Source: a virus | Virus record (IMG/VR): IMGVR_UViG_3300020221_000119 | Span: 1 to 24,588 of that record | Strand: one strand, 5' to 3' | DNA: 24,588 nt | Shown here: positions 4,277 through 23,626 of the stretch, piece by piece | Layout: every line of letters starts with the position of its first letter | Numbering within the stretch: position 1 is the stretch's first letter | Notes under the pieces: generated by a model | The model's database searches: none | What the model was told of the DNA's origin: nothing | The model's input: only the letters and a program-made list of their open reading frames with translations | Made by a program: the position numbers and the translations under genes

Positions 4277-4912
4277 TTAGTAAATATGATCCGCTGCTTG
4301 ATACTTCAACAAGTCTTCAACTGTCAACCACACATCTGTAGGTGGCAATAAAGTCTTTTGAATTTTTCTTCTATCTAAACCTGTTGCTTCATGTAGAATG
4401 TTTAACATTCTCGTATTGCAATTATTTGTTTCAACCAAATGCGCTTTAATATCGTGATGCTTACCTTCCAATTCAGTGCTGAATTGATGTGACAAGATAC
4501 CTGTATTTTTACCAATATATCTCTCACCTTTAGTTCCACTTACAAAAATTAGCAAAGCTGCGCTTAACAAATATCCGATACCAATAGTACGAATAGGTAA
4601 CACACTTCGATTCATTACATCGATAAGAGCAAAAGCATCATATAAACTTCCACCAATACTGTTAATATACAATGTTAGTGTTTCTCCTTCTTTTGGATTT
4701 ACATTTTTCAAAATAATCCACTGAACAATTTCCATAATAGATTGTTCATTTACATCTCCGATCAGAAATTTGACACTATTCTCTTCAAGCTGTTCGGTAC
4801 AGCTACCCATAAAAGGCATTTTTTGCATGTCTAATTTTAATTCTTGTGACCTCATATTTTTATTCCGATCTGTTTGTGATTTAGTTATAGTAGATAAGTC
4901 ACTTTTTACCAT
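4277..4912 (-). CDS. clpP: ClpP-like serine protease
   Basis: The ClpP fold motifs are all present. LTLYINSIGGSLYDAF is the oxyanion-hole region. Ser sits in GYLLSAALLI (residue 117 from the ATG at 4912), His in GILSHQ (142) and Asp in PPTDVWLT (193), so the catalytic triad looks intact. The C-terminus LLKYQAADHIY matches the usual ClpP end but stops early. The N-terminal 30-45 residues are unlike the axial loops of bacterial ClpP. ATG at 4912 overlaps the upstream gene by 7 bases; 4945 and 4855 are alternative starts. Without a visible Clp ATPase here, it could work with the host unfoldase or in capsid proteolysis (inference). Confidence 0.88.
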   Translation of the reverse strand: MVKSDLSTITKSQTDRNKNMRSQELKLDMQKMPFMGSCTEQLEENSVKFLIGDVNEQSIMEIVQWIILKNVNPKEGETLTLYINSIGGSLYDAFALIDVMNRSVLPIRTIGIGYLLSAALLIFVSGTKGERYIGKNTGILSHQFSTELEGKHHDIKAHLVETNNCNTRMLNILHEATGLDRRKIQKTLLPPTDVWLTVEDLLKYQAADHIY

Positions 4913-5628
4913 GATATTGTTAGATATTCTTCTTCTTTCTCCCAAGGATAACCATTTGGATATTTTTGATCAACAACTTTATTGCCTTCCTCAAAAAACT
5001 CTTTTGTTACAGAACCTTCGTTGCCATCTAATCGATAACATACAGTGTGCTGTTTCGTACATTCATAATCTTTTCTATATTTCAACAGTGTTGAATAGAA
5101 TTGTCTATCAGCACCCCACTTGCCATACCATCCGTGACTTACACCAAGTAAAGCATCTTTTTTGATAGCATAACAAGATGTGTCAATATGATTATAATTA
5201 GTGTATGGTGCCCATTTACCTAGACTTTCGCATTTATCTTGTAGTAAAAACCCACCACTCTTACTATGAATATCCCTAAATGAATAGCACCAAGGAGCAC
5301 CACTCTTTTCTAAAGTATCAACCATAGTCTCAATATGATTTGGTTTAAACCAATTGTCTTCATCTAAAAAGCAAATAACATCCGCGTTTACGAGATAAGG
5401 GGATGCTGCATATACGCGATGCCCATACCAACCTTTACCAATATTCTCTTCCATTGTAATGGTACGCGTATGTTCATACATCGATATCTTTTCGTTTGCT
5501 GAACGATATTGATTACCGTCAATGACAACATAATGCACTATATCATCATATGTTTGTTGAGCAACAGACGATAGACATTTCGACAAATACTCCGAATTAA
5601 TTGTGGGAGTAATAATAGCAACTTTCAT
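4906..5628 (-). CDS. Glycosyltransferase family 2 (GT-A fold)
   Basis: The 240-residue protein opens with the GT2 nucleotide-binding strand MKVAIITPTINSEYLSKCL, continues with VAQQTYDDIVHYVVIDG, and has the metal-binding DxD-type motif in CFLDEDNWFKPNHIE. A later HGWYGKWGADRQFY region fits the acceptor-side motif with its acidic residue. No membrane helix is seen, so it is probably a soluble enzyme transferring a sugar from a nucleotide-sugar. It is joined by an ATGA overlap to the gene upstream, two genes after a sugar-type nucleotidyltransferase, suggesting a shared role in glycosylating phage DNA, a phage protein or host surface glycan (inference). Confidence 0.9.
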   Translation of the reverse strand: MKVAIITPTINSEYLSKCLSSVAQQTYDDIVHYVVIDGNQYRSANEKISMYEHTRTITMEENIGKGWYGHRVYAASPYLVNADVICFLDEDNWFKPNHIETMVDTLEKSGAPWCYSFRDIHSKSGGFLLQDKCESLGKWAPYTNYNHIDTSCYAIKKDALLGVSHGWYGKWGADRQFYSTLLKYRKDYECTKQHTVCYRLDGNEGSVTKEFFEEGNKVVDQKYPNGYPWEKEEEYLTISW

Positions 5629-5816
5629 AATATATTCTCGTTTTTTAGTTCTTTAAATTGCTTATACAATTCTAGATACTGCTTAAAAATTTTTGGATAA
5701 TGCTCTGAATAACAGTATAATATTTCACCATATCTAGATACCATATCAAGCATTATCTTTTCAGACTGCTCATCAGTCAGCCCGTTCAATGTCTGATTCA
5801 TTGCATTCTGATCCAT
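5625..5816 (-). CDS. Small hypothetical protein overlapping the cupin gene (63 aa)
   Basis: ATG at 5816 gives MDQNAMNQTLNGLTDEQ; a TTG at 5828 is an alternative start. The first 44 bases are also coding in another frame for the C-terminus of the upstream nucleotidyltransferase-cupin protein, an overlap much longer than usual here. The protein is helical, with a Tyr-rich RYGEILYCYSEHYPKIFKQY segment, and ends in an ATGA junction with the glycosyltransferase. Unrecognised; position suggests a partner of its neighbours. Confidence 0.75.
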   Translation of the reverse strand: MDQNAMNQTLNGLTDEQSEKIMLDMVSRYGEILYCYSEHYPKIFKQYLELYKQFKELKNENIL

Positions 5817-6525
5817 ATTGTATTTCAATAATCTTTAGTTCTGTATCAGTTGTGATATTATAAAGTTTATGCCAAGATGATTCCGGAATCAAAAATTCTG
5901 ATTTAGAATACAGCATATGTTTAACATCATTCAAGATAACTTGCCCATATCCAGATGATACAAACCAAAATTCTGATCGATTATTATGTCTTTGAAGACT
6001 CAGAGATTTACCGGGATATACAACAAGTTCCTTAACTTTTATGGATGCATCACCGCTATTCAACTCATGAATAACTTTATAATAACCCCATGATCGATCA
6101 ACTTTACTTGTTTTCCAGGACTCAAGAATCGAAGACGATGAATTTACTTTATTTTCACCACCAATCCCAAAAGCAAATTCAACATTGGGTACAATCATTT
6201 CAGGAATATTATTCCTTGTTCGATCACCACCATTTGCGAAAATAAGTTTACTCGTTGGAAATGCTTTGCAAACTTTATTAATTAAATCGATAGCTGTTCC
6301 ATCATCATCATTAAAACATAGAACTTGATCGACACATTTTAGATTTTTAACAATTTCTGCTCGTTCATTCCATGGCAAAAAAGCTTGCCCTTTTTTTCGG
6401 ATTAGCCAATCATCACTGTTCACACCAACGATTAAAATATCACCAAGCTGTTTGGCAGCATTTAAATAACCAATATGCCCACTATGAATAGGGTCAAATC
6501 CGCCACTGGCGATAACAACTTTCAT
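5773..6525 (-). CDS. Cytidylyltransferase-like / mannose-6-P-isomerase-type cupin fusion
   Basis: Residues 1-140 are a nucleotidyltransferase of the RfaE/HldE-C type: GGFDPIHSGHIGYLNAAKQ carries the HxGH motif, and NSSSSILE matches the ISST-type motif. Residues 148-245 are a type II mannose-6-phosphate isomerase cupin: WGYYKVIHEL, PGKSLSLQRHNNRSEFWFV with metal-ligand His and Glu, then IPESSWHKLYN and IIEIQYG. The usual 'EDDIxRxxDxYGR' ending stops after SDIERAD, about eight residues short, where the next gene already overlaps. It probably activates a sugar or polyol phosphate for the glycosyltransferase two genes downstream; the exact substrate cannot be read. Confidence 0.88.
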   Translation of the reverse strand: MKVVIASGGFDPIHSGHIGYLNAAKQLGDILIVGVNSDDWLIRKKGQAFLPWNERAEIVKNLKCVDQVLCFNDDDGTAIDLINKVCKAFPTSKLIFANGGDRTRNNIPEMIVPNVEFAFGIGGENKVNSSSSILESWKTSKVDRSWGYYKVIHELNSGDASIKVKELVVYPGKSLSLQRHNNRSEFWFVSSGYGQVILNDVKHMLYSKSEFLIPESSWHKLYNITTDTELKIIEIQYGSECNESDIERAD

Positions 6526-9688: not shown

Positions 9689-9711
9689 GTATTCGGTCAC
9701 TCCACAAACAC

Positions 9712-9740
9712 ATTATACGATAAATAGAGTATGATTGCAA
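9712..9740 (-). promoter_or_regulatory. Sigma70-type promoter for metallopeptidase
   Basis: Minus strand reads TTGCAA (9735-9740), exactly 17 bases, TATAAT (9712-9717). The start is predicted near 9705, 17 bases ahead of the ATG. TTGCAA is self-complementary and may also serve the divergent gene. Confidence 0.75.
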
Positions 9741-13496: not shown

Positions 13497-13528
13497 AGTT
13501 TTTCTCCAAAGCATCACTCAACAGAAAC

Positions 13529-13557
13529 ATTATATTACAACCGCGCCCAAATGTCAA
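13529..13557 (-). promoter_or_regulatory. Consensus sigma70 promoter cassette with GTTGAGTGA start element
   Basis: Minus strand reads TTGACA (13552-13557), 17 bases, TATAAT (13529-13534), then six bases and GTTGAGTGA (13514-13522) at the predicted start. A GCCATAAAAA box (13561-13570) lies upstream of the -35. Confidence 0.9.
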
Positions 13558-15432: not shown

Positions 15433-15465
15433 CTCAATTTCCTTTAATTCTCACTCAACAAGCAT

Positions 15466-15493
15466 ATTATACACTATCCACAGGAAATGTCAA
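15466..15493 (-). promoter_or_regulatory. Consensus sigma70 promoter cassette with GTTGAGTGA start element
   Basis: Minus strand reads TTGACA (15488-15493), 16 bases, TGTATAAT (-10 at 15466-15471), then six bases and GTTGAGTGA (15451-15459). The cassette overlaps the 3' end of the preceding gene. Confidence 0.9.
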
Positions 15494-16840: not shown

Positions 16841-16874
16841 CTCAAACCTCATCTATCACTCACTCAACGATTAC

Positions 16875-16902
16875 ATTATACATCATTGGTGCTAGATGTC
16901 AA
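16875..16902 (-). promoter_or_regulatory. Consensus sigma70 promoter cassette with GTTGAGTGA start element
   Basis: Minus strand reads GCTTGACA (-35 at 16897-16902), 16 bases, TGTATAAT (-10 at 16875-16880), then six bases and GTTGAGTGA (16860-16868). CCATAAAAA (16906-16914) lies upstream of the -35. Confidence 0.9.
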
Positions 16903-17895: not shown

Positions 17896-17925
17896 CTCAA
17901 TATCTTATCATCACTCAACGATTAC

Positions 17926-17953
17926 ATTATACAGACATCCTAGGTAATGTCAA
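17926..17953 (-). promoter_or_regulatory. Consensus sigma70 promoter cassette with GTTGAGTGA start element
   Basis: Minus strand reads GCTTGACA (-35 at 17948-17953), 16 bases, TGTATAAT (-10 at 17926-17931), then six bases and GTTGAGTGA (17911-17919). Positions -10 to +10 match the 16875 promoter base for base (TATAATGTAATCGTTGAGTGA). A CCATAATAA box is upstream. Confidence 0.9.
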
Positions 17954-18961: not shown

Positions 18962-19300
18962 TTACTCTTTTGATGGGCTGATACCGATATTATAATTAGC
19001 ATCAATCCGCATTCTCTCATTCACTTCAGGTGCTTCCGTGTCAATAGATTGTGTTTTCGTGTCAATAGGTGATGATTCCGTGTCAATAGGTTCTAATTCA
19101 TCAAAGTCATCTTCGCTACCATTCTCCTGCTTCTGTCTAATCATTACAGGAGCAGCAGCACCACAAACCGGGCAATAGTTTACTTGACTACCATACTCGT
19201 AATTAGTAACCCAAAACTCACCATCTGAATTCTCATAACAGACTTCTACAGCAGGTCCATAAGCACCATCGGGTGATCTCAGTACACACTCATGCGACAT
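18962..19300 (-). CDS. CPVCG zinc-finger-like protein with IDT repeats and tail-fibre-like C-terminus (112 aa)
   Basis: ATG at 19300 has GGAG 7 bases upstream. Residues 1-50 hold MSHECVLRSPDGAYGPAVEV, a WVTNYEYG stretch and YCPVCGAAAP, a Cys set that could bind metal. Residues 60-92 are acidic and contain three 7-residue units (PIDTESS, PIDTKTQ, SIDTEAP). Residues 93-112 read NERMRIDANYNIGISPSKE, like the tail-fibre motif 'ERMRIDSSGNVGIGT'. The overall design suggests a small N-terminal domain with grafted low-complexity and fibre-derived tails (inference). Confidence 0.82.
   Translation of the reverse strand: MSHECVLRSPDGAYGPAVEVCYENSDGEFWVTNYEYGSQVNYCPVCGAAAPVMIRQKQENGSEDDFDELEPIDTESSPIDTKTQSIDTEAPEVNERMRIDANYNIGISPSKE
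19034..19096 (-). repeat. Three 21-base in-frame repeats (IDT heptapeptides)
   Basis: The plus-strand core CGTGTCAATAG occurs three times at 21-base intervals within the 18962-19300 gene, encoding PIDTESS, PIDTKTQ and SIDTEAP. The cores are nearly identical while the bases between them differ. Confidence 0.75.
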
Positions 19301-22727: not shown

Positions 22728-22755
22728 ATTATACACGAACCGAACCAGATGTCAA
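22728..22755 (-). promoter_or_regulatory. Consensus sigma70 promoter cassette with GTTGAGTGA start element
   Basis: Minus strand reads GCTTGACA (-35 at 22750-22755), 16 bases, TGTATAAT (-10 at 22728-22733), then seven bases and GTTGAGTGA (22712-22720). An A-rich ACCAAAAATAG tract lies just upstream of the -35. Confidence 0.9.
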
Positions 22756-22797: not shown

Positions 22798-23022
22798 CTA
22801 AAATGACTCATTATTAGACTTGGCAATCTCTGCTCGAATCTTGATTAAAGTCAACAACTTCTCCTTCTGGTTAGCACTCAGACCCAAATCAGAAACCAAT
22901 GTAACTACAAATGAATTCAGATAACCAGCAGCGTATGCATATCCACCATAACCAGACAACACAGCAGTAAGATTCGTCATAGCATCATACAACTCGACAT
23001 CAATATTAGCATTCACACTCAT
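22798..23022 (-). CDS. Small hypothetical protein (74 aa)
   Basis: ATG at 23022 shares a base with the stop of the 25-codon gene upstream (TGATG) and has AAGG 6-7 bases upstream. The protein reads MSVNANIDVELYDAMTNLTA, then GYGGYAYAAGYLNSFVVTLV and SANQKEKLLTLIKIRAEIAK. The Gly/Tyr/Ala-rich centre and helical ends do not match a family I can name. Confidence 0.8.
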   Translation of the reverse strand: MSVNANIDVELYDAMTNLTAVLSGYGGYAYAAGYLNSFVVTLVSDLGLSANQKEKLLTLIKIRAEIAKSNNESF

Positions 23023-23099
23023 CACAAACCTTTCTTGGTATCCATCTTACGGTTCAATGCAGCCTGGTCTTCCTCAAGATATTTCTTAAACGTGATCAT
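23022..23099 (-). CDS. 25-residue peptide gene sharing sequence with its neighbour
   Basis: ATG at 23099 has GAGG 8 bases upstream. The product is MITFKKYLEEDQAALNRKMD followed by TKKGL. QAALNRKMDTKKG is identical to residues inside the next upstream gene, from a 38-base exact DNA repeat. Its stop forms a TGATG junction with the next gene. The good ribosome site and coupling support translation. Confidence 0.65.
   Translation of the reverse strand: MITFKKYLEEDQAALNRKMDTKKGL
23029..23066. repeat. 38-base direct repeat, copy 1
   Basis: The stretch beginning CCTTTCTTGGTATCCATC and ending GCAGCCTG is identical to 23374-23411. It is coding in both places and in the same frame (QAALNRKMDTKKG). 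Confidence 0.95.
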
Positions 23100-23117
23100 T
23101 TCTTAGTCCTCATTGTG

Positions 23118-23567
23118 TCATGCGAATATATCCGATCCATCATGATCAAGGTGAAAACCATGTTTTTTACAGTACGCTTCCCATTCCTTAATATGTTTGT
23201 TGCGAAGCCAAGAACGATGATCGTCATAACGCATTCGCAACTCTGACCCCCGCCAACTATGAACTGAACCACCTCGGCTCACATGACTACCAATAGACTT
23301 CCATGTTTTTTCCAATATACGAACCGCTGAAGATGGTGTCATATTTTTCGGCATACCATCCTCTGCAATAGACCCTTTCTTGGTATCCATCTTACGGTTC
23401 AATGCAGCCTGCTTAGAGGCTTCACACTTAGCACACCTCTCTTCGACAGGCACTTGTTTATATTCGGACCATTCAGCAGACATCGGTGTACGGAGAATGT
23501 TACGACCACATGCGGTCATAGAACTCCAACCGGAACCAGACTTGCTTAAATGGATTTGGTGGCTCAT
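23118..23567 (-). CDS. CxxC protein with two-domain layout (149 aa)
   Basis: ATG at 23567 is chosen because it lies 25 bases after the start predicted for the 23599 promoter; an upstream TTG frame to 23669 crosses that promoter. Residues 1-55 form a small zinc-finger-like unit: MSHQIHLSKSGSGWSSMTAC, then GRN and RCAKCEASKQAALNRKM. Residues 70-149 hold MTPSSAVRILEKTWKSIGSH, a WRGSELRMRYDDHRSWLRN motif and HGFHLDHDGSD. The first unit resembles small phage 'H.s......TaCGr ... RCakCe' proteins; the second is unrecognised. Confidence 0.83.
   Translation of the reverse strand: MSHQIHLSKSGSGWSSMTACGRNILRTPMSAEWSEYKQVPVEERCAKCEASKQAALNRKMDTKKGSIAEDGMPKNMTPSSAVRILEKTWKSIGSHVSRGGSVHSWRGSELRMRYDDHRSWLRNKHIKEWEAYCKKHGFHLDHDGSDIFA
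23374..23411. repeat. 38-base direct repeat, copy 2
   Basis: Exact copy of 23029-23066, located 345 bases away within the CxxC protein gene. The two differ immediately outside this stretch on both sides. Confidence 0.95.
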
Positions 23568-23598: not shown

Positions 23599-23626
23599 AT
23601 TATACAGCACCTAGGTATATTGTCAA
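23599..23626 (-). promoter_or_regulatory. Sigma70-type promoter
   Basis: Minus strand reads TTGACA (23621-23626), 16 bases, TGTATAAT (-10 at 23599-23604). It is preceded by ACCAAATAGTTG. The GTTGAGTGA element is absent here. Confidence 0.85.

Follow-up and report, generated by a model that had tools for sequence, protein, structure and literature searches.

A 25-codon open reading frame in this viral sequence, which is part of the genome of a T4-like phage, is most likely a chimeric scar, a capsid-targeting tag without cargo, rather than a working decoy. We favor, with a probability of about 0.47, a history in which the insertion of a 307-nt cassette would have left this frame behind. The window, by which we mean the whole stretch of DNA that was analyzed, is one virus record of 24,588 bases. 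From the repeat, the reading frames, the determinants of the capsid-targeting sequence (CTS), and the autonomy of a 78-aa domain elsewhere, all of which are observed, we infer the order of events. The 25-residue peptide is a by-product under this history, and it is equally a by-product if a tagged gene was split or if the payload of a tagged gene was replaced.

An exact 38-nt repeat and the genes around it

The minus strand of the window carries an exact 38-nt direct repeat, with copies R1 (23374–23411) and R2 (23029–23066) whose starts lie 345 nt apart. No other exact repeat in the window is as long (the maximum was 13–19 nt in 30 dinucleotide shuffles). The flanks of the two copies are unrelated: an ungapped comparison gave 2–8 identities out of 20 per block, which is the background level. 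Both copies begin at a codon boundary on the minus strand, are in the same frame, and translate as QAALNRKMDTKKG. The first-pass annotation had reported an exact 38-base duplication with differing flanks, and had described the resulting peptide as carrying a segment identical to part of a CxxC protein; both statements hold. It had also proposed a recent origin, and the codons agree: all 11 informative codons are identical between R1 and R2, while 4.95 identities would be expected from the window's codon usage (P ~ 1e-4). This excess indicates that the copy was a recent event at the level of DNA. We found no match to the 38-mer in the viral_contigs collection, and no near relatives of the window in the phages collection.

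The window is a single contig with no near relative to check it against, which leaves room for an assembly artefact as the source of the second copy, but we consider this highly improbable. Each copy has its own, unrelated flanks. Also, the arrangement of left flank, repeat, middle, repeat, and right flank should allow only one linear path through all of the pieces, and misrouting at such a short repeat could not give a different linear order. The region may contain additional tandem units of 345 nt.

R1 corresponds to codons 53–65 of a 149-aa ORF (23118–23567, minus strand), which is the CxxC protein of the first-pass annotation. The shared segment is exact, as claimed. That annotation did not recognize that the ORF includes a 78-aa gene, which occurs on its own in other phages. 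Judging from its sequence, the ORF looks like two units: a zinc-ribbon-like N-terminus (residues 1–52) and, beyond R1, a 78-aa domain (residues 72–149). The 78-aa gene (23118–23354, minus strand) has its own ATG (M72), with AGGA 4 nt upstream. Residues 80–149 are similar to gp281 of CcrRogue (pairwise E = 1e-11, 36% identity), and the C-termini coincide. An alignment of six sequences of this domain has 17 invariant columns. In Caulobacter and Brevundimonas phages, the domain is encoded by stand-alone genes of 76–80 codons, and of the five records with gp281-like proteins whose annotation was consulted, four are from Dolichocephalovirinae (the fifth is listed just as Viruses). The domain is apparently also alone in a contig of 578 kb; the frame listed there is longer, with an internal Met that matches. 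In the window, M72 with its ribosome site is a possible internal start, yet no stop codon separates it from the upstream part of the 149-aa ORF.

Several of the relevant database hits were weak. Matches to Caulobacter phages at E = 2–8 proved real on pairwise comparison, while matches to Erwinia and Salmonella phages in the same range were judged to be due to chance after we inspected the proteins. Streptomyces phages also gave matches with such E values. We did not confirm any relative of the 149-aa protein in viral_contigs. Residues 1–52 have an H-C-CxxC pattern that we take to be that of small phage zinc ribbons; profile matches to this part have E values of just 0.1–0.2. Among these is an HNH family (phrog_30443), and because this match is weak and there was no match in Pfam, we dropped the idea that the N-terminus is an HNH nuclease. 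A pattern search for the zinc-ribbon part in genome_contigs gave 57 matches, of which none was confirmed, and we disregarded matches in two of 30 records as low-grade similarity. A single-sequence AlphaFold model of the 149-aa ORF was too poor for use (mean pLDDT of 50).

On the other side of the repeat, R2 is followed by a 74-aa or 75-aa ORF (22798–23025, minus strand), which starts with GTG at 23025 or ATG at 23022 and overlaps the 25-codon ORF by TGATG. The final four bases of R2, AAGG, form the ribosome site of this ORF, at a distance of 6 nt. We found one relative of the 74-aa protein in 30 records, a protein of 69 aa (E = 6.7e-5 for that record). This relative is distant (29% identity, pairwise E of 0.004); it lacks the tag, starts at the equivalent Met, and shares the core YGxYxYxAGYLxS. 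With the 69-aa relative as the query, no further relative was found in 26 more records. The phages collection contained no relative of the 74-aa protein, and none was confirmed in viral_contigs.

Each copy looks native on just one side: R1 carries on the zinc-ribbon-like ORF on its left (with equal G+C, 0.474), and to the right of R2 lies the 74-aa gene, for which R2 provides both ribosome site and TGATG. This fits the suggestion, made when the duplication was noticed, that the peptide is a by-product of recombination.

A σ70-type promoter-like site (TTGACA-N16-TATAAT, 23599–23626, minus strand) precedes the 149-aa ORF; it matches 12 of 12 consensus bases, and this is a consensus match only. 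A second such site, also a consensus match only, lies beyond the 74-aa ORF (22728–22755). Given the positions of these two sites, the 149-aa, 25-aa, and 74-aa ORFs look like one transcription unit.

Elsewhere in the window, we noticed another promoter-like element, TGTATAATGTNNNNNTTGAGTGA, which occurs five times on the minus strand (9697–9719, 13514–13536, 15451–15473, 16860–16882, and 17911–17933) with at most 3 mismatches, as compared to 0.09 copies expected from shuffles. The ORFs at 9700 and 13517 start with GTG inside this element, which would imply very short leaders. Also, the ORF at 18962–19300 (minus strand) contains three 20-nt units with 21-nt spacing (19031–19092), which code for a heptad repeat around IDTE/IDTK. 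Finally, 5773–6525 (minus strand) encodes a cytidylyltransferase-like domain (PF01467) followed by a cupin of the mannose-6-phosphate-isomerase type (PF01050).

A probable T4-type targeting tag in the 25-codon frame

The 25-codon ORF (23022–23099, minus strand) translates as MITFKKYLEEDQAALNRKMDTKKGL. As had been noted, it has its own ribosome site (AGGA, 7 nt before the ATG) and a TGATG junction to the next gene. R2 accounts for codons 12–24, or 38 of the 75 coding nucleotides. The frame was originally described as mostly formed by the copy, whereas the share is close to one half. Much of the rest is a separate module: codons 1–10 (23070–23099, minus strand) encode a CTS-like tag, MITFKKYLEE, with an L-x-E cleavage site. 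The copied segment was correctly recognized in the first-pass annotation, which missed that residues 1–10 are a CTS of the T4 type.

According to a review of work on the T4 head (PMC9026906), the first ten residues of IPIII are enough for packaging, and targeting is mainly via residues 4 and 7, while processing is via residues 8 and 10. Cleavage by the gp21 protease is reported there to occur after the E of an L/I-x-E motif. MITFKKYLEE has aromatic residues at positions 4 and 7 (F4 and Y7) and the gp21-type site at positions 8–10 (L8-E9-E10); read residue by residue, it carries every published CTS determinant of T4. As a control, we searched T4 itself (NC_000866, 64000–78000), where 2 of 25 coding sequences, ipII and ipIII, have the determinant pattern. 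T4 ipI has the MKT start in common but fails at residue 8. Among the window's ORFs of at least 20 codons, just one has the pattern. In shuffles of the window, 13 of 600 had one ORF with the pattern, and 1 of 600 had the pattern along with a ribosome site.

The same tag precedes unrelated proteins in other phages. A tblastn search with the 25-mer against the phages collection gave one record (E = 6), phage C48C1 of the Kyanoviridae, in which 10 of 10 tag residues are identical and the tag is followed by a DUF5824-type protein. When we scanned viral_contigs for DNA that could encode MITFKKYLEE, we found three stretches, each at the start of an ORF: two are copies of a 291-aa ORF, which presumably has a P-loop-like motif, and one is an ORF that is open at the end of the stretch. 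Outside the window, MITFKKYLEE is thus found at the start of three other payloads. A looser scan of viral_contigs, with M-x-T-F-K-[KQE]-[FY]-[LF]-x-E, hit at least 120 stretches. Among the matches listed, there were at least 127 sites and at least 113 closed ORFs, which ranged from 13 to 486 aa (median 188), or from 49 to 486 aa without one 13-mer. Of ten tagged ORFs drawn from these closed ORFs, seven had PHROGs matches, including a head-and-packaging family, a cytidyltransferase, and a polynucleotide kinase.

When ORFs were selected by the four T4 determinants, we obtained 136 closed ORFs from 126 loci; these loci were mostly picked by the stricter motif, so the count is informative about ORF lengths and not about frequency. 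Just two of these ORFs have under 45 codons, 11 have 45–99 codons, and 123 have at least 100 codons. Ten first-order Markov controls, combined, gave 10, 4, and 1 ORFs in the same classes. Because 134 of 136 tagged ORFs have at least 45 codons, and the two shorter ones are at the level of chance, a tagged ORF of 25 codons is abnormal.

The phages that carry the tag also appear to have the machinery to cleave it. Ten CTS-bearing records had 48 tag-pattern sites, as compared to 0 for the reversed pattern; these records were chosen for the tag, and some of the 48 sites are due to chance (for instance, one has an in-frame stop). The T4 prohead protease family (PF03420) was found in 10 of 11 records that are CTS-bearing or T4 and in none of 14 control genomes. 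The remaining record of the 11 is 98.8 kb and may be a fragment. In the window, PHROGs identified a ClpP-type protein at about 4277–4945 (minus strand), whose best matches are head maturation proteases and not, by name, the gp21 family. The window's DNA ligase has matches in 3 of these 11 records (one at 50% identity), and its RNA ligase has a match in 1 of 11, another record (48% identity), so at least for these genes the window is related to phages that use the tag. Genes with the CTS are common among the related contigs. No relative of the DNA ligase was confirmed in viral_contigs.

Two arrangements of tagged genes caught our attention. In one CTS-bearing record (G017:C1:42256-63898), 13 sites with the tag pattern lie within 22 kb, all on one strand, and may form an island of head-cargo genes. 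The contig that bears the DNA ligase that is 50% identical to the window's (L030) has three successive ORFs, at 2357, 2818, and 3099 on the plus strand, which share the start MKTFKEYLEE and then differ wholly. Among CTS paralogues, DNA identity ends at the tag. We considered whether copies of the CTS spread as short patches of DNA but largely dropped this idea, as codon usage accounts for most of the similarity (five pairs, P = 0.01–0.27). Five tag strings were not found in the literature that we searched.

If the 25-mer is translated, the precedent of T4 predicts that it is taken into the prohead core and cleaved after E10, to give a 10-mer and the basic 15-mer DQAALNRKMDTKKGL, which could remain in place or leak out. 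Could it be a working gene, with a tag that delivers the 15-residue peptide to the head and then to the host, or with a peptide that acts as a decoy for the 149-aa protein? The tag is complete, with a cleavage site; the frame is open, with a ribosome site 7 nt before the ATG; a promoter-like site lies upstream; and ten tag residues suffice for packaging in T4, according to PMC9026906. We nevertheless consider a working gene quite improbable. No other tagged ORF of under 45 codons was seen above chance in the 126 loci. Instead of a protein-sized payload, as in T4-like internal head proteins, the tag is followed by 15 residues, of which 13 are an exact copy from the neighboring gene; this cargo is recent and shows no sign of selection. 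The second half of the peptide had no relatives in tblastn of the phages collection, and a scan for DNA patterns encoding NRKMDTKKG gave 0 matches. The earlier proposal, in which the peptide would act as a decoy and compete with a contact segment of the larger protein, also finds no support: the duplicated segment lies between the two units of the 149-aa ORF, and nothing points to a role in contacts.

Possible histories of the frame

In the history that we favor, there would at the start have been a 66-codon zinc-ribbon-like gene whose end overlapped the 74-aa gene by TGATG. If the left side of R1 is joined to the right side of R2, without the 307-nt block between the copies (23067–23373, minus strand), the result is a 66-codon ORF with a TGATG overlap to the 74-aa gene. 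The proposed cassette, with the extent of this block, would have brought a complete 78-aa gene with its ribosome site, as well as the start of a CTS-tagged gene that is cut off one codon past the cleavage site. Its entry would have left 38 nt duplicated on its two sides. As a result, the zinc ribbon would have become joined in frame to the 78-aa gene, and translation of the CTS stub would continue into what was once the end of the zinc-ribbon gene. A plausible route would be template switching, with a return 38 nt upstream of the point of departure. Since R1 fits on the left, R2 fits on the right, and the block lies between them, this is the pattern of an insertion that duplicates 38 nt at its site.

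There are also arguments against insertion. We identified no known process for a 38-nt duplication at an insertion. The 74-aa protein has a single, distant relative, and the zinc-ribbon label stems from a residue pattern, with profile matches at E values of just 0.1–0.2. Searches that included phages, viral_contigs, and genome_contigs yielded neither a relative with an empty site nor an intact CTS gene beside the 78-aa gene. And the CTS frame and the 74-aa frame agree if the 38 nt are discounted, which would occur by chance in one case in three.

This last observation is what a different history predicts: the 74-aa protein was once CTS-tagged, and tag and payload were then separated by a templated insertion of 38 nt, with its source 345 nt upstream, which shifted the frame. 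The tag would then end after 25 codons, and the payload would be made untagged from its own ATG by reinitiation at TGATG. One short event would explain why a tag without cargo lies directly upstream of a possible cargo, and the combined length of about 87 codons is within the range of tagged ORFs (49–486 aa among the matches listed, one 13-mer aside). We took this to be a strong candidate until the relative of the 74-aa protein proved to be untagged. That relative, the sole one found, begins at the same Met; furthermore, the ribosome site and the TGATG junction, both of which are made by R2, become coincidences, and a one-in-three agreement of frames is weak evidence. We now view a split gene as unlikely.

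Alternatively, 38 nt may have been copied by templated repair from an intact 149-aa gene into a downstream CTS gene, in place of its payload, with the rest of that gene being lost. The identical codons do indicate recent copying of DNA, and the absence of a payload is suggested by the usual length of tagged ORFs, 45 codons or more. This scenario requires a deletion besides the copy. In it, the ribosome site and TGATG at the right junction would be coincidences, as would the autonomy of the 78-aa gene. We consider it rather unlikely.

Returning to the insertion history, we expect little function for the 25-mer beyond ribosome run-on into the 74-aa gene. Its main effect may perhaps be on translation, with TGATG allowing ribosomes that finish the 25-codon frame to restart on the 74-aa gene.

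Tagged head cargo and comparison with known systems

The tag is the sole feature that the internal head proteins of T4 have in common. To our knowledge, the origin of new tagged cargo is not well documented. An exact and fresh duplication beside a stub tag offers a snapshot of the joining or separation of tag and payload. It is a long shot that the 25-codon ORF represents the birth of a head-cargo gene, with a tag in front of a short patch from a neighboring gene. The 15-residue peptide would then be packaged, trimmed to size, and injected. If this were true, then short-patch duplication would be a way for such phages to try out new injected cargo. More broadly, our scans suggest that a large set of head-cargo genes bears this tag in metagenomic T4-like phages, and the tag could be used to list such genes. 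Annotators should treat the 149-aa ORF as containing the sequence of two genes and should not label the 25-mer a decoy.

The 78-aa domain of the window and the CcrRogue gp281-like proteins are homologous, and their ends agree to within one residue. The difference is that those proteins stand alone, whereas in the window a zinc-ribbon-like N-terminus precedes the domain in one continuous frame that crosses R1. The 25-mer resembles IPII and IPIII of T4 in its ten N-terminal residues (positions 4 and 7 are aromatic, position 8 is L or I, and position 10 is E), in its L/I-x-E cleavage motif, and in having unrelated sequence after the tag. It differs from IPII, IPIII, and other CTS cargo in that just 15 residues follow the tag, 13 of them copied from the gene next door.
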